From: Bacteroidia bacterium
GTDB lineage: Bacteria; Bacteroidota; Bacteroidia; JAIBAJ01
Assembly: GCA_019695265.1 (NCBI GenBank)
Contig: JAIBAJ010000001.1
Span: forward strand, 1-34,346
Length of the DNA stretch: 34,346 nt
Reading direction: 5' to 3'
Position numbers and translations under genes: made by a program. Under the pieces are notes generated by a model. The model worked only from the letters and a program-made list of their open reading frames with translations. It was not told the DNA's origin and searched no databases. Below, one piece after another: positions 51-33,348 of this stretch (within the stretch, counting starts at the first letter, position 1; each line of letters starts with the position of its first letter).

Positions 51-205
51 ATGCGGGCCCCTTCCGCCCAACCATCATTTTACTAAACCCAAAACAACAT
101 GTATGGGCTTTCAGGTCACGCTATCGGCTGTAGTCCTCGGCCCACTTGGCTAGCGCCGCGTGCGCCTGTGGGCTACTTGCCTCTATCGTTGCCCGAGGCG
201 CTACT
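51..205 (-). repeat. Structured intergenic element, copy A1
   Basis: One of six related GC-rich elements in this window, read on the minus strand. The core (195 down to 112) opens with CGGGCAACG and closes with CCTG, so the basal stem CGGG/CCTG contains one G-U pair possible only if this strand is the RNA. Inside it GGC/GCC and GTAG/CTAC pair. The internal loop is CCCACAG opposite CGAGGA, and the apical hairpin is GGC-GCTA-GCC. A second hairpin (GCCCA/TGGGC) follows and the element ends in GGGGCCCGCAT. It lies about 200 bp past the 3' end of the GNAT gene. Positions 206-401 hold no gene, only a short CTAGT/ACTAG hairpin. Family unrecognised. Confidence 0.8.
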
Positions 206-7171: not shown

Positions 7172-7543
7172 ATGGAAAAGATTGAATTGGAGTACGAAAT
7201 TAAAACCTCGCCTCGCATCCTTTACAAAATGATTAGCACAGATGAAGGTTTGCAGCAATGGTTCGCCAAGAAAGTTAAAATAACCAAGGATAGTTATACC
7301 TTCGACTGGGATGGAACCACCGAAGTAGCTAAATTACTTGGAATGAAGGAAAATGACCATGTTAAGTTTCGATTCGCCAATAAACCCGACCACACCTTTA
7401 TGGAGTTTAAAATAAAAGTGGATGATCTCACCAAGGATGTTGCCTTATTAGTTGTTGACTTTGTAGATCCCGACGAAAAAAATGAAACTAAGGAGTTGTG
7501 GAATAAGCAAATTGAAGATTTGATGGAGGCCATTGGGCTGTAA
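7172..7543 (+). CDS. START-like (SRPBCC fold) domain protein
   Basis: A 123-residue single-domain cytoplasmic protein. Its beginning (EKIELEYEIKTSPRILYKMIST) and the segment LQQWFAKKVKITKDSYTFDWDG resemble the helix-grip START/AHSA1-like fold, in which an N-terminal strand is followed by L-x-x-W. It ends with an amphipathic helix (ELWNKQIEDLMEAIGL). Members of this Bacteroidota family have no established function, and the fold binds hydrophobic ligands or acts as a co-chaperone in other families. It is preceded by a possible -7 box and followed within 20 bp by an intrinsic terminator. Confidence 0.7.
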   Translation: MEKIELEYEIKTSPRILYKMISTDEGLQQWFAKKVKITKDSYTFDWDGTTEVAKLLGMKENDHVKFRFANKPDHTFMEFKIKVDDLTKDVALLVVDFVDPDEKNETKELWNKQIEDLMEAIGL

Positions 7544-7561: not shown

Positions 7562-7590
7562 AGAACCGGTTGATTGCCGGTTTTTTTATT
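7562..7590 (+). terminator. Intrinsic terminator of the START-like gene
   Basis: The stem AACCGG/CCGGTT with a 7-nt loop is followed by a run of seven T. It lies 20 bp after the stop codon and directly before repeat copy B2. Confidence 0.85.
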
Positions 7591-7596
7591 AATTTT

Positions 7597-7751
7597 TATT
7601 TGGCGGGCCCTTTTCGCCACCAATAGTTTGCAATTTCCTGAATGAAAAGCAGGCGAAAAGGACGGGCTATCGCCTGTACTCCTCGTCCCTTCAGGCTAAG
7701 GCCTTTCGGTACTGTGGGGTACCTGGCTCTATCCCTGCCCGACGGAAACCC
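7597..7751 (-). repeat. Structured intergenic element, copy B2
   Basis: Subtype B of the family, read on the minus strand. The conserved 5' lead is GGGTTT, and the core runs from CGGGCAGGG (7741) to GCCCG (7663). Stems are CGGGC/GCCCG, GCC/GGC and GTAC/GTAC. CCCACAG lies opposite CGAGGA, and the apical hairpin is AGGC-CTTA-GCCT. The second hairpin is a perfect 10-bp stem, CCTTTTCGCC/GGCGAAAAGG. It runs into GGGCCCGCC and then CCAAATA, a flank shared with copy B3. It stands head-to-head with copy A2. Confidence 0.8.
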
Positions 7752-7778
7752 CAACTTTCGTGCAAAAAACAACTGTTT

Positions 7779-7935
7779 GGGTTTAGTCGGGCAACGATTG
7801 AGACAAGTAGCCCACAGAACCCCGATGGCGCTAGCCTCGGGGGGCGAGGACTACAGGCGAAAGCGTGACCCGAACGCCCATTGCAAACCACCAGAAAATC
7901 TTACAAAAACTAATTGGGCGGAAGGGGGCCCGCAT
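7779..7935 (+). repeat. Structured intergenic element, copy A2
   Basis: Subtype A on the plus strand. The lead is GGGTTT (7779) and the core CGGGCAACG (7788) to CCCG (7872). GTAG/CTAC pairs, while the neighbouring GAC/GGC stem has one mismatch. CCCACAG lies opposite CGAGGA, and the apical stem CCCCGA/TCGGGG is capped by GGC-GCTA-GCC. The second hairpin is CGCCCA/TGGGCG and the end is GGGCCCGCAT. The copy lies 20 bp before the glpD 3' end. Its 5' end is complementary to the 5' end of B2 across a 27-bp spacer. Confidence 0.8.
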
Positions 7936-7954: not shown

Positions 7955-9619
7955 CTAAATAAAATCCAGTACCGATTGAATTTCGGTATCCAATTCTGAT
8001 TCAGCCTGCTTCAGAAAGTCGGAAGGAATAGACGATTTATTTGATAACCAAGAATTTACAGAATCCCGCTTAGCCTTTACCTGAGGGCGATTGAAATAAA
8101 GCATACCCGAACGTCGAATAAAAAAATCGCTTGGCGTGCAAACCATTTCCTCGTTCATGCCATAACTAAGTTCAGCTATCAAAGCCAAATCCTCCGAAAC
8201 GGGAATTTCTCTGGCCAAATTATAAGCAATTTCAATAATTTGTCTTGCATTTTTCCCATATTTACCTACCAATTTTTGAATAATAGGGTAAGAAAAGCCC
8301 ACTTGCTTAGCCTCCCCAAACAGAACTTCGGTAAACTCCAACACCTCCTGTTTAGAAGAAAATCCACCGGCCAATGCTATTTGGTGGGTTGAACATGCTA
8401 CAAATGGCAACCCTTTTCGCTCCGAAATTCGTGCAAAAATCTTGTCTACAATACGTTGCGACATTTTCCGATAACCGGTCAATTTACCCCCGGCGATGGA
8501 CAATAAACCGGATGAAGACTCAAATATTTCGTCTTTTCTCGACAATTCAGAAGGCGATTTACCATCTTCATGAATGAGAGGCCTCAAACCACACCAGGTA
8601 CTCATAATATCCGATTCATTTACCTGCACCCCTTCAAACATATCGTTCACTGCTTTTAACAGATAGGCAACATCCTCTTGGGTAACTGCAGGTCTTTCTT
8701 TTTGTTCGGTATAATTGGTGTCGGTAGTTCCGACGTAAGTGCAACCATCTCGAGGTATTGCAAAAACCATACGACCAAGGGGTGCATCGAAATACATGGC
8801 TTGTTGTATGGGCAGTTTCTCGAAAGGAAAAACGATATGAACCCCTTTGGTAAGGTGCAACCGTTTACCTTTTCTGGAATTATCCAACTCACGAAGTTCA
8901 TCAACCCAGGGTCCTGCAGCATTGATAATATAATCTGCCTTAATTTCAAATTCAACACCTGTAATTTGATCCTGAACTTTGGCTGCATTTAACTTAGTTT
9001 GATCATAGACGAACCCAAGGCAACGAGCATAATTTAAGCAAATGGCGCCTCTTTTAACAGCCTCCTTCATATTTTCAATTACCAACCTGGCGTCATCGCT
9101 TCGATATTCGGTGTACAAGGCGCCGGCTTTTAGAATTGTTTTACGAAGCAAAGGTTCCTGATTCAGCGTTTGCTCTTTCGAAAGCATTTTTCGACGTTCA
9201 CCAGCCTTAACACCTGCCAATACATCGTATACATAGAGTCCAATAGAGGTAGAAAACTCACCCAAGGATCCATTTTCAATAACAGGCAAGAGCATTTTTT
9301 CAGGAATTACCAAATGAGGAGCGTTTCGGTAAACTATTTCCCTTTCCCGACCAACTTCCATAACCAGCCCAATTTCAAGCTGCTTGAGGTAACGCAAACC
9401 TCCATGAATAAGCTTAGTGCTTCGGCTACTTGTTCCTGCACCAAAGTCTTGTTTTTCAATAAGAGCAACTTTTAAACCCCGAGCCGAGGCATCCAAGGCA
9501 ATCCCGGCCCCGGTAATGCCTCCGCCAATAACCAAAACATCAAAGGTTTGGGAAGACAGTTGCTGAACAAAATCAGAACGATTTGCTGAAGAAAAACGAG
9601 GTGTTTCCAAGTGCGTCAT
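7955..9619 (-). CDS. glpD: Glycerol-3-phosphate dehydrogenase (FAD)
   Basis: GlpD oxidises sn-glycerol-3-phosphate to dihydroxyacetone phosphate and passes electrons to quinone at the inner membrane. The 554-residue protein has the N-terminal FAD motif (VLVIGGGITGAGIALDAS, about residues 28-45). It also has the GlpD/GlpA signatures GTSSRSTKLIHGGLRYL and YVGTTDTNY, and the C-terminal helical domain of the bacterial enzyme. The length is normal. No glpF or glpK is adjacent, so glycerol uptake must be encoded elsewhere. Its -7 box (9631-9638) is only 11 nt from the ATG, so the leader is a few bases at most. Confidence 0.95.
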   Translation of the reverse strand: MTHLETPRFSSANRSDFVQQLSSQTFDVLVIGGGITGAGIALDASARGLKVALIEKQDFGAGTSSRSTKLIHGGLRYLKQLEIGLVMEVGREREIVYRNAPHLVIPEKMLLPVIENGSLGEFSTSIGLYVYDVLAGVKAGERRKMLSKEQTLNQEPLLRKTILKAGALYTEYRSDDARLVIENMKEAVKRGAICLNYARCLGFVYDQTKLNAAKVQDQITGVEFEIKADYIINAAGPWVDELRELDNSRKGKRLHLTKGVHIVFPFEKLPIQQAMYFDAPLGRMVFAIPRDGCTYVGTTDTNYTEQKERPAVTQEDVAYLLKAVNDMFEGVQVNESDIMSTWCGLRPLIHEDGKSPSELSRKDEIFESSSGLLSIAGGKLTGYRKMSQRIVDKIFARISERKGLPFVACSTHQIALAGGFSSKQEVLEFTEVLFGEAKQVGFSYPIIQKLVGKYGKNARQIIEIAYNLAREIPVSEDLALIAELSYGMNEEMVCTPSDFFIRRSGMLYFNRPQVKAKRDSVNSWLSNKSSIPSDFLKQAESELDTEIQSVLDFI

Positions 9620-12552: not shown

Positions 12553-15500
12553 TTATTCTTTCACTATTCGTTTGGTAATACTTGCCTCATTTACCTTAAT
12601 AGTTACGAAGTAAATACCTCTGGATAATTCCGAAAAATCTACTTTACGCACCACCAGACCTGTACCATCAAGCATCACTGGATTTACAACTGACTTACCC
12701 AACATATCTGCAAAGGTAACTTCTACTTTAGTTGAAGGAGCCAAAGTTGCTTCGATAAAGAAGCTGGAAGAAGCCGGGTTAGGATACATGTTTAAATCAG
12801 TAACTCCATTTAACTCTTCAATTCCAATGGTATTTGGTTTTAGGACAAAGTTAAACACCAATGACGTATCAAATCCACAACCAGAGCTATCTTGAGTTAC
12901 AACGGTATAAGCACCAGTTTGTGTAGCTACATATTGCTGATTAAATGCTCCCGGAATAATGGTTCCATTAAAGTACCATTGATAACTGATGGCTGCAGGC
13001 ATAGCTTGAAGGGTATCGTCAAATGAAACTATGTAAGGATCAACGCTGGTAATCACAGTTACATTAATTGTGTTAGATGTGATACCGCCGTTGTTCGGCA
13101 AAGTAGGATCATAAGGATAACAATCGTTATAGGCTGTTACAAAATATGAACCTGACACATTGGTAATGATATCTTCAGTAGTTGAACCGGAAGTCCAAAC
13201 ATAATAATCAAATCCTGAGGTAGCATCTAGACCAACTTCATTTTCAGAACCTGTTCCTTCGCAGAATATAACCGGACCATCAGGAACAATGGTTAAGCTG
13301 CTTGGGCTTAAACTAACATAGATAGGTTGTGAAGAACCAACACAACCATCGGAATTAGTAACCGTAACTACATAAGTACCCGGTTGAGTAATTGTAACGC
13401 TATTAGTAATATCTGACGGACTAGTTGACCATTGGTAAGCAGTGTAAGTACCTACAACGGTATAGGTAATTTGATCTCCCACGTTACATAACAAGGAGCT
13501 ATTGGTACTGGAAGTTACAGTTGGCACAGGTGTGGTACCGACCGTTACAGAATAAGGGGAGGAAGTGGCCACACAACCAGCGGGGTCAGTAACAGTTAAG
13601 GAATAGGTACCTGAGCTAGTAACGGTTAAAGTTGGGGAGGTAGCACCACCCGGACTCCAGGAATAAGATGCAGCACCTACAGTAGTTCCATCTAAAACAA
13701 CCGGTTGACCGGAACATACTACTGATCCACCAGTACTTGAAATAATATTAATTTGAAGGGTCGATCCAGATTGAATAGTTATTGCACCTGAAGTAGCAGA
13801 ACATCCATTGGCATCAGTTCCGGTAACGGTGTAAGAACCGGACTGAGTAACGGTAATTGTTGGAGTTGTTGCTCCTCCGGGATTCCAAACATAAGTGGAA
13901 GCTCCAGAAGCAGCTAACACTACAGATCCATTACAGAATTGAGTTGGACCATTAGCAACTGCTGAAACAGAAGGGTTTGACAATATTGTTACAGTAACTG
14001 GAGCAGAAGTTGCACCACAACCAGGGATAGCTTCACCATAAACGGTATAAGAACCACTGGTTGAAACAGAAATAGAAGCCCCTGTTTGGTTACCAGGAGA
14101 CCAAGTATAGGTTGAAGCGCCTGACGCTGTTAAGGTTACCGATTGTCCTTGACATACTTGAGTGCTTCCTTGAGCTACTGCAGTAACAGTTGGAATAGCA
14201 ACTTCGGTTACAGTAACAGGAGCTGAACTTCCAGAACAACCTGCTTGAGAAACTCCGACTGAATATTGACCTTGAGTTACAACAACAGTTTGGTTTGTAC
14301 CAATAATGTTATTATTACTTAAATCAGTCCAAACGTATTGTGTATAACCTGTTCCGGCATCTAAAGTGGTATTACCACCTTGACAATATTGAAGAGTTCC
14401 TGTCACGACAGGAGTAATAGTTGAGGACTGAGTAACCGTAACAGAGGCGGAAGTACCTGTACAACCATTTGCATCTGTAACAGTTACGGTGTAAGAACCA
14501 TTAGCAGCTGTTATAGTTTGCGTAGTTTCACCATTTGGAGTCCAAGAATAAGAAGTAAATCCGGCACCGGCATCTAAGGTAGTTCCCGGTGCTGATGGGC
14601 AATAGGTTAAACTACCGGTAATAGTTGGTACAGGAGCAGTTCCTTGGGTAACAATAATAGTATCAATACCTGAACATCCGGATGAATTCACTACTTGAAC
14701 CCCATAAATTCCGGGAGTGCTTGTAGTGAAAGTTTGGTTGGTTTCACCTGGAATAGGAGTAGGTGTTGTACCTACTGCAGTACCCCATTGATAAGTTGTA
14801 TATCCTGTTCCGGCATCTAATGTTACAGAACCGCCGGGACATAGAACCGTATTTCCTGTAATGGCGAAGGTAACCTGACTGCTTTGAGTAACGGTAACAG
14901 GAGCAGAGGTTCCAGAACATCCATTGTTATCGGTTACAGTTACTGTATAAGTTCCTGCTGGAGCGGTAACAGTTTGGGTTGAACCTGAAAAAGAACCTCC
15001 ATCAGACCAGGAATAAGTAGCAAATCCGGCACCTGCATCCAAGGTGGTTCCGGTAGTACAATAAGTTAAAGAACCTGTAATGGTAGGTGATGGAGAAGGA
15101 AGTTGAACAACGGTAATGGTATCAATACCTATGCAACCAGAGGCCAAATCAACTTGAGCACCATAAATGCCTGGTTGAGTTGCAGTGTAAGTTTGATTGG
15201 TTTCACCAGGAAGGATAGTAATACCTGTGGTAATAACTGCCCAAATATAGTTAGAACCAGCACCTGCATCAAGAACAGTAGATCCACCTGAGCAAATTGC
15301 TGTTGTGCCTGTTATCGTAATTGGAACAGTGTCATTCTCAATAACAGCAACTAAAGCTGAGCCTACACAACCATTGGCATCAGTAACTGTTACGGCATAA
15401 GTTCCCGCACCTAAGGTAGCAGTTTGGGTGGTACTGTATGGCGGAACCGGTATTGGTAAGGCATCAGTCCATCCATAGGAGGTATAACCTGGACCAGCAT

Positions 15501-17376
15501 CAAGAACAGTAGTTGCGCCAGGACACACGGTTAAGTTACCGGTAACTGTAACGTTAACAACAGTTTCTGTTACTGTAACTGAGCCTGTTCCGGTACAGCC
15601 AAAAGCATCAACAACGTTTACGGTATATGCTCCTGAACCAACTGTTACAGTTTGGTTAGCATCGGTAAAACCATTAGGTCCTGTCCAGGCATAAGTAGAA
15701 TAACCTGCACCTGCATCCAAGGTGGTGGTAGTTCCTTGGCAAATGGTTGTGGTGCCAGTAATATTTACAGTAACACTTCCGCTTACAACAGTTGCCGATG
15801 AAGAACCTTGGCAACCATTCGCATCAGTAACTGTTAAGTTATAAGTACCTGCAGCAGTAGCTGTAATAGTTTGAGTGGAGGCTGTGAATCCGGATGGGCC
15901 GGTCCAGGCATAAGTTGAAAAACCTGCTCCACCATCCAAAGTTGTTGAACTTCCGTTACAAACATTTAAATTACCAGTGATAGTTGGAGTAGGACCAGCA
16001 TTGACAGTTACTGTAGCTGATGCTGTACCTGTACAACCACCTGAATTAGTTGCACCCACGGTATATGTTCCGGCAGCAGTTGCCGTAATGGATTGAGTGG
16101 TTGCAGTAAATCCATTAGGACCGGTCCAAGCGTATGATGTAAATCCAGCACCTGCTGAAAGTGTTGTTGATGCTCCTTGGCAGATTGTAGTAGTACCGGT
16201 AACACTTGTAGAGGCCGGAGTAGGAGCAGTATAAGTAAATTGGGCATTACAAGCTGACGACCCAGAGAAAACAGCATTTACTGTATGAGAAGCTCCATCA
16301 GCAGTTACACCGGTGATAGTAAAGTTATAAGGTGAAGTAAAAGGAGCATTAATAACTGTTTGATTTGCTCCATCTGAGAAGGTTAGGGTACCCGTAGAAG
16401 GAGGGTCAGTAAAAGTTATGGTACCAGTTACGTTATAGGTATTTGTACCTGCCGTGCAGGAAGCCCCAGAACCTGTAAAAGCTGAGATATTACAAAGTGC
16501 ATTACAAGTTGTACTTCCGGTACTACTTGGATTCTGACTGAAGGTAATATTAGTTGCACCACCATTATAATTGGTAATAAGAATGAGGTAATATTCACCG
16601 GCTTGAGCATTAGGGATAGTTAATGAAAACGTTGCGCTGGCAGCGTAATCACAGGCTATTGGAGCCAAACCGGAAAGACTTGAACATCCGGTTGAAGGAT
16701 CGGAAAAAGGTCCCCAAATTGCTCCATCCACATCAATTCCGCTGGAATTGCTTTGGTCGATTGCAATGCTTCCACTTGTTCCAACCTGGAAATAATACCA
16801 AGCCGGATTAGGTCTGGTGGAGAGACATCCATAGTTAGGCCCTGTTTCTGCTGTTCCGCCTGAGGTACCAGCAGGAAAAGTGATAGCACTACTTAAGCAA
16901 GCACCACCTGCACCTGCGCAGGTTGTAGAGGGCCCAGGAGGAACCACAATAGCACCACAGCCTATGGTTGCAGTAAAACCGGCATTTTGAACAGATCCAT
17001 CAGATGTAAAACGAAAAGTTAAACATCCACTAGTTGAAGTAACAGTTCCTGGCGAAGTGGATCCGGTATACTGTCCGACTAAGGTTGCACTTGTTGAAGA
17101 ACCATCATAAATATAGAGGTAATCGTAGTTACTTTCCAAATTGAACGCACTAAAAATAGCATACATTGGAGTTGCGCTTCCATCACCGCAAATGGTTACA
17201 GTGTAATCTTCATTTGCAGAATAGGTTGAACCCGAACCACCACTATCATAAAAGTTGGCACTACAAGAATTCACCGTTCCACCTTGGCTAACCAAAATTG
17301 TTTGCTGGGCTTGAGCAGATCCACTTAAAAAATATAAACCTGCTAAAGCTACGATTGCAGTATAAAATTTATTCAT
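12553..17376 (-). CDS. Giant T9SS-secreted surface protein with tandem Ig/PKD-like repeats
   Basis: A 1607-residue secreted protein. Residues 1-24 are a Sec signal peptide. Residues about 28-140 form a CUB-like domain (NYDYLYIYDG, CLTFRFTSDG). Residues 150-285 are a Cys-rich beta domain resembling a pre-peptidase/jelly-roll module. Residues 290-385 form another Cys-containing beta domain. From about 389 to 1515 there are about 15 repeats of roughly 75 residues. The last 80 residues are a T9SS type A sorting domain (NMYPNPASSSFFIEAT ... RGIYFVTIKV ... KRIVKE). This predicts export through Sec and T9SS, loss of the tail and attachment to the cell surface or release. An adhesin or matrix role is likely but not shown. 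A promoter and small secreted partner gene lie upstream, a terminator downstream. Confidence 0.9.
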   Translation of the reverse strand: MNKFYTAIVALAGLYFLSGSAQAQQTILVSQGGTVNSCSANFYDSGGSGSTYSANEDYTVTICGDGSATPMYAIFSAFNLESNYDYLYIYDGSSTSATLVGQYTGSTSPGTVTSTSGCLTFRFTSDGSVQNAGFTATIGCGAIVVPPGPSTTCAGAGGACLSSAITFPAGTSGGTAETGPNYGCLSTRPNPAWYYFQVGTSGSIAIDQSNSSGIDVDGAIWGPFSDPSTGCSSLSGLAPIACDYAASATFSLTIPNAQAGEYYLILITNYNGGATNITFSQNPSSTGSTTCNALCNISAFTGSGASCTAGTNTYNVTGTITFTDPPSTGTLTFSDGANQTVINAPFTSPYNFTITGVTADGASHTVNAVFSGSSACNAQFTYTAPTPASTSVTGTTTICQGASTTLSAGAGFTSYAWTGPNGFTATTQSITATAAGTYTVGATNSGGCTGTASATVTVNAGPTPTITGNLNVCNGSSTTLDGGAGFSTYAWTGPSGFTASTQTITATAAGTYNLTVTDANGCQGSSSATVVSGSVTVNITGTTTICQGTTTTLDAGAGYSTYAWTGPNGFTDANQTVTVGSGAYTVNVVDAFGCTGTGSVTVTETVVNVTVTGNLTVCPGATTVLDAGPGYTSYGWTDALPIPVPPYSTTQTATLGAGTYAVTVTDANGCVGSALVAVIENDTVPITITGTTAICSGGSTVLDAGAGSNYIWAVITTGITILPGETNQTYTATQPGIYGAQVDLASGCIGIDTITVVQLPSPSPTITGSLTYCTTGTTLDAGAGFATYSWSDGGSFSGSTQTVTAPAGTYTVTVTDNNGCSGTSAPVTVTQSSQVTFAITGNTVLCPGGSVTLDAGTGYTTYQWGTAVGTTPTPIPGETNQTFTTSTPGIYGVQVVNSSGCSGIDTIIVTQGTAPVPTITGSLTYCPSAPGTTLDAGAGFTSYSWTPNGETTQTITAANGSYTVTVTDANGCTGTSASVTVTQSSTITPVVTGTLQYCQGGNTTLDAGTGYTQYVWTDLSNNNIIGTNQTVVVTQGQYSVGVSQAGCSGSSAPVTVTEVAIPTVTAVAQGSTQVCQGQSVTLTASGASTYTWSPGNQTGASISVSTSGSYTVYGEAIPGCGATSAPVTVTILSNPSVSAVANGPTQFCNGSVVLAASGASTYVWNPGGATTPTITVTQSGSYTVTGTDANGCSATSGAITIQSGSTLQINIISSTGGSVVCSGQPVVLDGTTVGAASYSWSPGGATSPTLTVTSSGTYSLTVTDPAGCVATSSPYSVTVGTTPVPTVTSSTNSSLLCNVGDQITYTVVGTYTAYQWSTSPSDITNSVTITQPGTYVVTVTNSDGCVGSSQPIYVSLSPSSLTIVPDGPVIFCEGTGSENEVGLDATSGFDYYVWTSGSTTEDIITNVSGSYFVTAYNDCYPYDPTLPNNGGITSNTINVTVITSVDPYIVSFDDTLQAMPAAISYQWYFNGTIIPGAFNQQYVATQTGAYTVVTQDSSGCGFDTSLVFNFVLKPNTIGIEELNGVTDLNMYPNPASSSFFIEATLAPSTKVEVTFADMLGKSVVNPVMLDGTGLVVRKVDFSELSRGIYFVTIKVNEASITKRIVKE
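12834..16212 (-). repeat. Tandem repeat block inside the giant gene (about 15 units of ~225 bp)
   Basis: The unit encodes roughly xxITGxxxxCxGxxTTLDAGAG, then Y-x-W, then Q-T-x-T, G-x-Y-x-V-T-V-T-D-A-N-G-C-x-G, about 75 residues. Nearly every unit has one cysteine early (C-x-G) and one late (GC-x-G), which could form an intra-domain disulfide. Units near the N terminus of the block are most alike and those towards the C terminus diverge. The last unit lacks the first cysteine. Units 5-6 and 7-8 look like a duplicated pair (see findings). Confidence 0.85.
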
Positions 17377-26040: not shown

Positions 26041-26190
26041 TATTTGGGGGGCCCCATTCGCATAAAAGTTAACACTATTACAAAAATCAGAACGGCTCAT
26101 GGTCGGGCTTTCGTCGTTACTCCTCGGTTCGTTGCTAAGGCAACGCACCTGTGGGGTAACATCCTCAATCCCTGCCCCGGGTGCAAACCC
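26041..26190 (-). repeat. Structured intergenic element, copy B3
   Basis: Subtype B on the minus strand. The lead is GGGTTTGCACC. The core runs from CGGGGCAGGG (about 26179) to GCCCG (26104). The inner stem is TTAC/GTAA where other copies have GTAG/CTAC or GTAC/GTAC. CCCACAG lies opposite CGAGGA. The apical hairpin CGTTGC-CTTA-GCAACG is perfect. The second hairpin is CCAT/ATGG next to GGGGCCCC. The CCAAATA end is shared with B2. It is the left partner of copy A3, head-to-head. Confidence 0.78.
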
Positions 26191-26617
26191 AAAAAACGTC
26201 GCATTGACCATAATGTATTGCTGTGCTACCGGGCTATTCAGTCTTAAACCGATTGCAAATTATCCCAAAATTGTCAATAGAAATTTTAAACTACGTTTCG
26301 AGACAAGTGTTAGTAAGGCTTTCAAGTAATTTTTACCGAGAGAACATTATGTAAGACCTATTTAAGAATTAGCCTTATTGGTAAAATTAGGTCTAACATA
26401 ATGTAACCTCGGCACTAACTAACACTAGCTCGGGGTTAACCCGAATCTCCCCACATCCCACCGAATTTGTCAATTGTTCCCTTCGTTTCAAATGACAATT
26501 TTGGTATTAAGTGGATATTTACCCTGAATAGTTGCAATTATTTTTCTTAATACAATGAACCTTCCTTGAAGAGGACAAAAAGACACCGTTAATTGTTGGG
26601 TCAAAAGTTAGCCGAAT
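26191..26617. other. Non-coding interior between copies B3 and A3
   Basis: This 427-bp stretch separates the two divergent elements. I see no credible gene on either strand. Its main content is the large nested inverted repeat at 26299-26432. A smaller TTGTCA/TGACAA inverted repeat lies near 26468-26499. It is AT-rich, unlike the elements that flank it. Confidence 0.5.
26299..26432. repeat. Large nested inverted repeat (hairpin) between copies B3 and A3
   Basis: The outer arms are CGAG + AGTGTTAGT (26299-26314) and ACTAACACT + CTCG (26418-26432). The inner arms are CCGAG + ACATTATGT + AGACCTA (26336-26360) and TAGGTCT + ACATAATGT + CTCGG (26388-26412), all perfectly complementary within each block and interrupted by 1-3 nt. 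The loop is 27 nt. CGAG/CTCG blocks cap both levels, so the arms look like two copies of one design. No T run follows, so it is not a standard terminator. Confidence 0.8.
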
Positions 26618-26772
26618 GGGTTACGCATCGGGCAACGATAGAGGCAAGTAGCTCCAAGCCAACGCAGCGATTAAGCGGAGTTGGCTTGGACTACAGCCGA
26701 TAGCGTGACCCGAACGCCTTGCAAGTTATTAAGAGATTTGCAAAAATTTATTCAGGCGGAGGGGGCCCGCAT
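26618..26772 (+). repeat. Structured intergenic element, copy A3
   Basis: Subtype A on the plus strand. The core CGGGCAACG (26629) to CCCG (26712) has GGC/GCC and GTAG/CTAC stems. This copy lacks the CCCACAG/CGAGGA internal loop. In its place a perfect 11-bp stem, TCCAAGCCAAC/GTTGGCTTGGA, leads to a 16-nt loop. The second hairpin is CGCCT/AGGCG and the end is GGGCCCGCAT. It lies 51 bp before the 3' end of the AIM24-family gene. Confidence 0.8.
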
Positions 26773-33190: not shown

Positions 33191-33348
33191 GGGTTTGCAC
33201 CTCGGGCAACGATAGAGGTAAGTAGCCCACAGGAGCACGCGGCGCTAGCCAAGTGCTACGAGGACTACAACCGATAGCGTGACCCGAACGCCTTGAACCT
33301 AAACCAGGAAGTTTCGATTCAAAGTTGGTGGGCGGAGGGGGCCCGCAT
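33191..33348 (+). repeat. Structured intergenic element, copy A4
   Basis: Subtype A on the plus strand. The lead is GGGTTTGCACC (33191), as in copy B3, and the core CGGGCAACG (33203) to CCCG (33286). The stem that is GGC/GCC in A1 and A3 is GGT/ACC here, a compensated change. GTAG/CTAC follows, CCCACAG lies opposite CGAGGA, and the apical stem AGCAC/GTGCT is capped by GGC-GCTA-GCC. The second hairpin is CGCC/GGCG and the end is GGGCCCGCAT. It stands alone between the SDR gene and the convergent beta-helix gene. Confidence 0.82.

Follow-up and report, generated by a model that had tools for sequence, protein, structure and literature searches.

A divergent, extended form of the Flavo-1 motif in head-to-head pairs in a Bacteroidia genome, possibly a fold of single-stranded DNA

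The stretch of a Bacteroidia contig analysed here (the window, 34,346 nt) contains short sequences of two subtypes, A and B, which twice lie head to head, with a minus-strand B element and a plus-strand A element diverging from a common centre (7597-7935 and 26041-26772). What kind of unit is this? A preliminary description offered two interpretations, a transposon-like unit with terminal inverted repeats or a divergent pair of RNAs with a common promoter. The arrangement itself is confirmed in the sequence: the window holds six copies, two B-A pairs and two solo A elements, the latter being A1 and A4 as described (Table 1), and the outer ends of both pairs are of the same kind and bear GCGGGCCC/GGGCCCGC. 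The contrast between a short and a long spacer also stands, but the lengths, given as 27 bp and about 430 bp, are about 47 bp and 451 bp when counted between cores.

Table 1. Elements and adjoining features in the window
Feature	Position	Strand	Remarks
Solo A element 1	53..195	-	downstream of minus-strand gene 402-1349
Apparent intrinsic terminator of upstream gene (AACCGGTTGATTGCCGGTTTTTTT)	7564..7590	+	from sequence; immediately outside B element 1 tail
B element 1 (GGGCAGGGAT subtype)	7598..7741	-	P1 CGGGC/GCCCG, P2 rod, P3 arm
Centre between B element 1 and A element 2 cores	7742..7787	.	46 bp; contains both G/T-rich heads
A element 2, head-to-head partner of B element 1	7788..7933	+	
B element 2 (GGGCAGGGAT subtype)	26041..26178	-	49.9 bits, covariance model
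Unrelated dispersed repeat in long spacer of second pair	26285..26510 (bounds approximate)	.	same sequence elsewhere in genome
A element 3	26629..26771	+	fold z -6.9 (DNA), -7.6 (RNA)
Solo A element 4	33203..33346	+	between convergent genes

Architecture of the element and its relation to Flavo-1

The element is about 145 nt long and is predicted to form, on the given strand, a three-way junction of a closing stem (P1), a rod (P2) and a variable arm (P3). P1 pairs CGGGY with RCCCG, in the window CGGGC with GCCCG and across the genome either CGGGC/GCCCG or CGGGT/ACCCG. The P2 rod consists of short helices split by purine internal loops (ACG a TA ga GGC aa GTAG c CC aca G ... C ga GG a CTAC a GCC ga TA g CGT), and the P3 arm reads CCC gaa CGCC, a variable 35-40 nt, and GGCG ga GGG. 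Subtypes differ in the P2 stem (GTAG/CTAC or GTTAC/GTAAC) and in the P3 arm (ACC/GGT, GCC/GGC or CCA/TGG). An A-rich stretch (~16-24 nt) comes after every copy, regardless of the direction of the next gene. Two details of the preliminary description are revised by this architecture. The GGGCCC ends, taken for an independent terminal repeat, are the junction of the 3' strands of P3 and P1, and their GCCCG pairs with the CGGGC with which the same element begins. The ends CCAAATA and GCAT do not distinguish B from A, since both forms are found at the ends of A copies elsewhere.

When five window copies were folded independently, all of them gave this architecture as RNA and four gave it as DNA. 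In B element 1 the three-way junction is the minimum free energy (MFE) structure both as DNA (z -4.1) and as RNA (z -3.1); in A element 2 it is the RNA MFE, and the DNA MFE differs. A element 3 has a straight helix (CTCCAAGCC/GGCTTGGA) in place of the inner P2, with the same GTAG/CTAC closing. In an alignment of 30 A copies 98.5% of 1043 cells are paired and 11 pairs have changed on both sides; the covariation score was reached by none of 500 shuffles, and sliding the 3' partners by 1-3 columns lowers the pairing to 31-41%. In silico, these comparisons identify a three-way-junction fold with strong covariation. A subset of 16 A copies, including A1 and A3 of the window, has a further ~100 nt in common on the 5' side (CTTGCAGAA..AATAGATACCGT..GTTGGGTTAGCAA..GTTGAGGTTGCACC) and frequently has the tail ATACTAGGAATTTTAAAATA; the element may therefore be longer in this branch.

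The Flavo-1 RNA motif (Rfam RF01705; Weinberg et al. 2010, PMC2864571) has been a candidate sRNA without a function since 2010 and is filed by Rfam as Gene; sRNA. The window gave no match to the Flavo-1 model at its gathering cut-off of 42 bits. At permissive thresholds B copies at other loci of this genome score 31-36 bits (E 1e-4 to 3e-3), under that cut-off, and a third subtype in the same genome exceeds it (e.g., C5:51022-51111, which is paired head-to-head with an A copy). The alignments contain the P2 rod (GAT..G..GG / GG.A.AGC) with symmetric purine internal loops and the conserved GAT and AGC blocks, and the hosts are Bacteroidetes in both cases; the Rfam model, however, lacks the P1, P3 and A-rich tail of the window elements. 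Judged by these alignments, the window elements represent a form of Flavo-1 that is divergent and extended. Flavo-1 itself is already known, whereas the three-way-junction extension, the mixed head-to-head pairs, the copy number of ~500 per genome, the occurrence on plasmids of Pseudomonadota and Bacillota, the leading-region placement and a DNA-level role were not found in the open-licence literature searched.

Flavo-1 was found in 75 of 198 Bacteroidia genomes, several of which had at least 20 of at most 22 scored candidates. The P1 and P3 arms are common to many other lineages, and Flavobacterium-type copies (L119-L123) lack them. P1 takes the forms GCGTG/CACGC, GCGTT/AACGC, GCAAG/CTTGC, GCAAA/TTTGC and GAGTT/AACTC in other lineages, where P3 can be reduced to a mini-hairpin such as CCC-GAA-GGG. 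BLAST searches of plasmids and phages with the A element or with a Flavobacterium-type copy gave no match; plasmid matches were obtained solely with the type that bears P1 and P3.

Copies, pairs and persistence in the genome

The pattern GGGYARSGATWG has 469 matches in the 3.83 Mb genome, compared with 5 for the reversed control. A covariance model detected 98 copies in 728 kb, or ~2% of the DNA, none of them weaker than E 0.002. The genome contains about 500 copies, nearly all of them intergenic, and the near absence of weak matches among the 98 suggests that decayed remnants are rare. Mapping the copies and counting pairs against solos, as the preliminary description had proposed, resolved the 98 into 79 units, of which 60 are solos and the other 19 pairs. 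Wherever two copies are less than 700 bp apart, which happens 19 times, they stand head-to-head; the distance between their cores is 47-514 bp. The pairs mostly join A to B, 16 of the 19 combining different subtypes (p = 0.0016). The suggested preference for head-to-head pairing of two subtypes is thus supported, where random orientation genome-wide would have spoken against it. Nevertheless, B on the left and A on the right is not a rule, as the pair arrangements A(-)B(+), A-A and B-B occur too.

Orientation and spacing depart from chance beyond the pairs as well. Neighbouring units share an orientation in 19 cases versus 32 expected (P = 0.0004), and at less than 6 kb in one case versus 11 expected. 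A replication-strand bias is not apparent, both orientations being mixed along every contig. Units are also spaced more evenly than random intergenic gaps (CV 0.56 versus 0.84-0.89). Recombinational loss of the DNA between close direct repeats would suffice to explain the scarcity of same-orientation neighbours and perhaps accounts for part of the even spacing. Gene direction was rejected as the cause of the alternation, because codirectional contexts would favour equal, not opposite, neighbours.

A unit is present in 75 of the 163 gaps of at least 150 bp, and more often in convergent gaps (29/46) than in divergent ones (12/40, p = 0.003), according to gene calls that are approximate, having been made with a simple in-house script. 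Of 96 copies, 64 have the tail pointing toward the 3' end of a gene, frequently at a distance of 12-60 nt from the stop. In the first window pair the tail of B element 1 points toward a gene ending at 7543, and that of A element 2 ends 21 nt from the stop of a minus-strand gene (7955-9619). The genes on the head side of solos have no orientation bias (30:30), and the chromosomal copies revealed no -35/-10-like boxes; these copies therefore do not look like promoters of neighbouring genes. Dispersed repeats adjoin some copies. The one in the long spacer of the second pair, ~225 bp (GTTAGTAAGGCTTTC...ACATAATGT...CTAACACTAGCTCGGGG), also adjoins A copies at C1:118245 and C3:45162, and others, e.g. 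TTTAGGCAAATTAATGCGAAGCATAATTGGACCATTACTGATTGGCTATCGG, adjoin A copies as well (flanks of L002-L024).

Do these units move? In 18 pairs no target-site duplication was found (mean direct repeat 1.6 nt, versus 1.7 nt for shuffled partners), and the outer ends of pairs are only 55% alike over 32 nt. Two congeneric genomes (G079 and G174) hold three elements at orthologous positions in surrounding DNA that is 75-85% identical; all three tested sites are occupied in both, a small sample from another family than that of the window genome. In one of these elements a T-A pair of one species corresponds to a C-G pair in the other. The relatives sampled for the window genome itself are no closer than class level (nearest YidC 52% identical), and the loci compared there carry no element; a comparison of G100 with G064 matched only other copies and one distal flank. 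Identity in P3 is 0.71 for copies whose cores are at least 98% identical, 0.68 for cores of 80-90% and 0.55 for shuffled pairs, and identity upstream likewise does not rise with that of the core. Near-identical cores are therefore not a mark of recent copying and reflect constraint on the core or its homogenisation.

We find no transposase partner either. Among the Y1_Tnp loci of 18 element-bearing genomes (the window genome and 17 others) only two of 32 hold an element, one of the two genes has short palindromes of its own, and four element-bearing genomes lack Y1_Tnp. Mobilisation by a RAYT was rejected, since the Y1_Tnp genes of these genomes are not flanked by the element. One Y1_Tnp gene (L033, 2438-2974, minus strand, on G000:C29) lies between arrays of a short palindrome, CGACCCCATCGGGGTCACATATCG, on both sides; this locus resembles a REPtron that has REPs of its own and no relation to the A and B elements. 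The missing target-site duplications, the lack of a transposase partner, the orthologous copies and the failure of P3 and flank similarity to track the core suggest that the elements are mostly held in place and not freshly transposed. Together with the finding that each half of a pair is a complete fold, this leaves the proposed transposon-like unit with terminal inverted repeats without support. Past spread must nevertheless have occurred, because two genera of one family (f34) have in common, at 86% identity, a 315-bp unit that carries the element, and no shared flanking proteins were found within 1.5 kb. At the f34 loci L130, L131 and L144 the element sits within this larger, hairpin-rich repeated unit of ~315 bp, and at L130 a promoter-like box, TAnnTTTG, lies just past the element tail.

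A fold of DNA or of RNA

Base-pair composition, loops and transcripts bear on whether DNA or RNA folds. G-U pairs make up 8 of 1043 cells (0.8%, one mis-aligned column excluded), as against 15 of 194 (7.7%) in tRNAs of the same genome (Fisher p 8e-8, in which independence is overstated as the copies are related). P1 has no G-U pair among 460; C-G and T-A pairs are both present there without intermediates (92 copies). Low G-U could also result if both strands are under selection or the cores are homogenised. Small P3 hairpins have GNA or GNNA loops in 10 of 20 cases and GNRA in only 2; GNA and GNNA loops are typical of unusually stable DNA mini-hairpins. In Flavobacterium psychrophilum, Flavo-1 matches are indifferent to transcript sense, occurring both sense and antisense, and many fall outside transcripts (PMC9723704).

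The plasmid copies add the matter of the strand. Leading regions contain four copies in Moraxella bovoculi, two in M. ovis and one in M. catarrhalis (three plasmids, seven copies) and two identical copies in Acinetobacter, the last below the model threshold and recognised by P1, P3 and a CCCAAA tail. All lie on one strand, opposite to most leading genes, and adjoin T4CP/relaxase and antirestriction genes; from the geometry of F and the gene order, this is presumably the transferred strand. G-U rarity, the missing intermediates in P1, the P3 loops and the F. psychrophilum transcripts lean toward DNA over RNA, and this strand is in keeping with a role in DNA. Paraclostridium plasmids bear the element without the anatomy of a leading region. 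In those of P. bifermentans, widely spaced head-to-head Flavo-1 pairs flank an amidase gene (L180, 2189 (-)/5005 (+); L181, 572 (-)/3514 (+)), and the elements have an extra outer stem.

The closest parallel for a DNA-level role is provided by the single-stranded DNA promoters Frpo and ssi (Masai and Arai 1997; PMC9849209; PMC11541004). The likeness consists in a stable single-strand fold, a position in the leading region beside antirestriction genes, the presumed transferred strand and several copies per plasmid. Frpo on F has the same arrangement as the Moraxella and Acinetobacter copies, and we count the long extra helix in P2 of Moraxella, Vibrio and Acinetobacter copies as a further likeness. 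However, Frpo consists of a single stem-loop, long and imperfect, the Bacteroidota copies yielded no promoter boxes, and ~500 chromosomal copies have no counterpart in the three works cited. Leading-region placement is found for the Moraxella and Acinetobacter relatives and does not apply to chromosomal copies. Direct homology to Frpo was rejected, as the element profile R1 has no match in the F or ColIb-P9 stretches; by sequence, the Frpo of the F plasmid would be an analogue at best.

Three other explanations have to be weighed. The elements may be a small structured RNA family, as the Rfam classification of Flavo-1 implies, with the folding strand transcribed either from a promoter of its own or within a UTR, and the RNA fold under selection. 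The fold is confined to one strand, RNA folding energies favour it too, the RNA MFE equals the consensus in all five window copies tested, and there are compensatory changes and a few G-U pairs. Yet G-U pairs are rare, most genes of the plasmid leading regions lie on the strand opposite to the folding one, the F. psychrophilum copies have no preferred sense and are often untranscribed, and tails toward gene 3' ends make solo copies mostly antisense to the gene they abut. We consider an RNA family unlikely. Its particular form in the preliminary description, a divergent RNA pair with a common promoter, found no positive support, given the rarity of G-U and spacers of 47-514 bp, among which those read showed no constant sequence.

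A selfish repeat of the REP/BIME or MITE kind, in which a transposase acts on the hairpins and the head-to-head pairs are a mobile, REPIN-like doublet, would account for the high-copy, intergenic, palindromic elements, their inverted doublets of different subtypes and the 3'-end bias, all known from REPs, BIMEs and REPINs with their RAYTs (TnpA_REP). The 315-bp unit of f34 and the 'atypical structures' flanking TnpA_REP subclass 2.6 of Bacteroidetes (PMC6006769) are also in keeping with it. However, a REP is a hairpin of 20-40 nt with a 5' GTAG/GTGG foot; the element, a three-way junction several times that length, has heads that read GGGTTTGCACC or variants, in which no GTAG-type foot was identified. 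MITEs and other TIR transposons share with it the inverted ends and the many gene-less copies, but the element has no target-site duplication, its ends are alike only over the P1 strand, and each half of a pair is complete and common as a solo. With the Y1_Tnp counts, the orthologous retention and the scarcity of decayed copies also against it, a selfish repeat is improbable. We regard as very improbable a structural role at the 3' ends of genes, in which the element would insulate transcription units from each other or aid termination and be selected for its place just past stop codons, especially between convergent genes. The tail bias and the occupied convergent gaps fit such a role, as do phage copies directly behind long genes, two of them terminase-like. 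But one third of the tails point to gene starts, no T-tract comes after the hairpin when it is read in the direction of the abutting gene, and some copies follow a terminator that appears complete (7564-7590). The conserved sequence of unpaired purine loops on one strand and the leading-region placement would also go unexplained.

The reading that we favour, to which we would give an even chance, is that the element functions as a fold of single-stranded DNA, with pairs providing one fold for each strand. When one strand is exposed during replication, repair, transfer or uptake, the element on it would fold into a pseudo-duplex, whose P2 rod, as a duplex mimic, may recruit RNA polymerase, primase or another conserved nucleic-acid enzyme. 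The enzyme would then start RNA or primer synthesis on single-stranded DNA, as Frpo and ssi do on conjugative plasmids. Mixing A with B in a pair would avoid a long perfect inverted repeat that could snap the partners together. Whereas the fold, the copy number, the intergenic placement, the pairing and the retention at three loci are shown in silico, we infer the enzyme, the activity on single-stranded DNA and the chromosomal purpose. The lack of promoter boxes in chromosomal copies and the unbiased orientation of head-side genes count against this mechanism.

A wider claim, tentative and in our view rather unlikely to hold as a whole, is that Flavo-1, instead of being an RNA, is a fold of single-stranded DNA found across phyla that serves to start RNA or primers on exposed single strands. 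Some Bacteroidota chromosomes would then maintain hundreds of copies, at a density of about one unit per 9 kb and on either strand, as start sites throughout the genome, with pairs serving both strands. Reading Flavo-1 as a DNA-strand fold, with the P1 and P3 arms and the link to leading regions, gives it a testable function. If true, single-strand DNA promoters or priming sites would extend beyond Proteobacteria, and ~2% of one Bacteroidota genome would be explained as paired copies of one structure.

Copies in viral contigs have no clear common partner gene; two terminase-like genes and one prohead protease lie beside them, and the other neighbouring genes have no assignment. In contigs L214 and L197 and the similar L202, L205, L208 and L212, the element is found directly behind a gene of ~520-566 aa, two of which weakly match the terminase large subunit while the others match nothing. 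In the window, 12553-17376 is a 1607-aa ORF with degenerate repeats of ~76 codons (a 51-nt motif at ~228-bp spacing), which probably encodes a repetitive surface protein.
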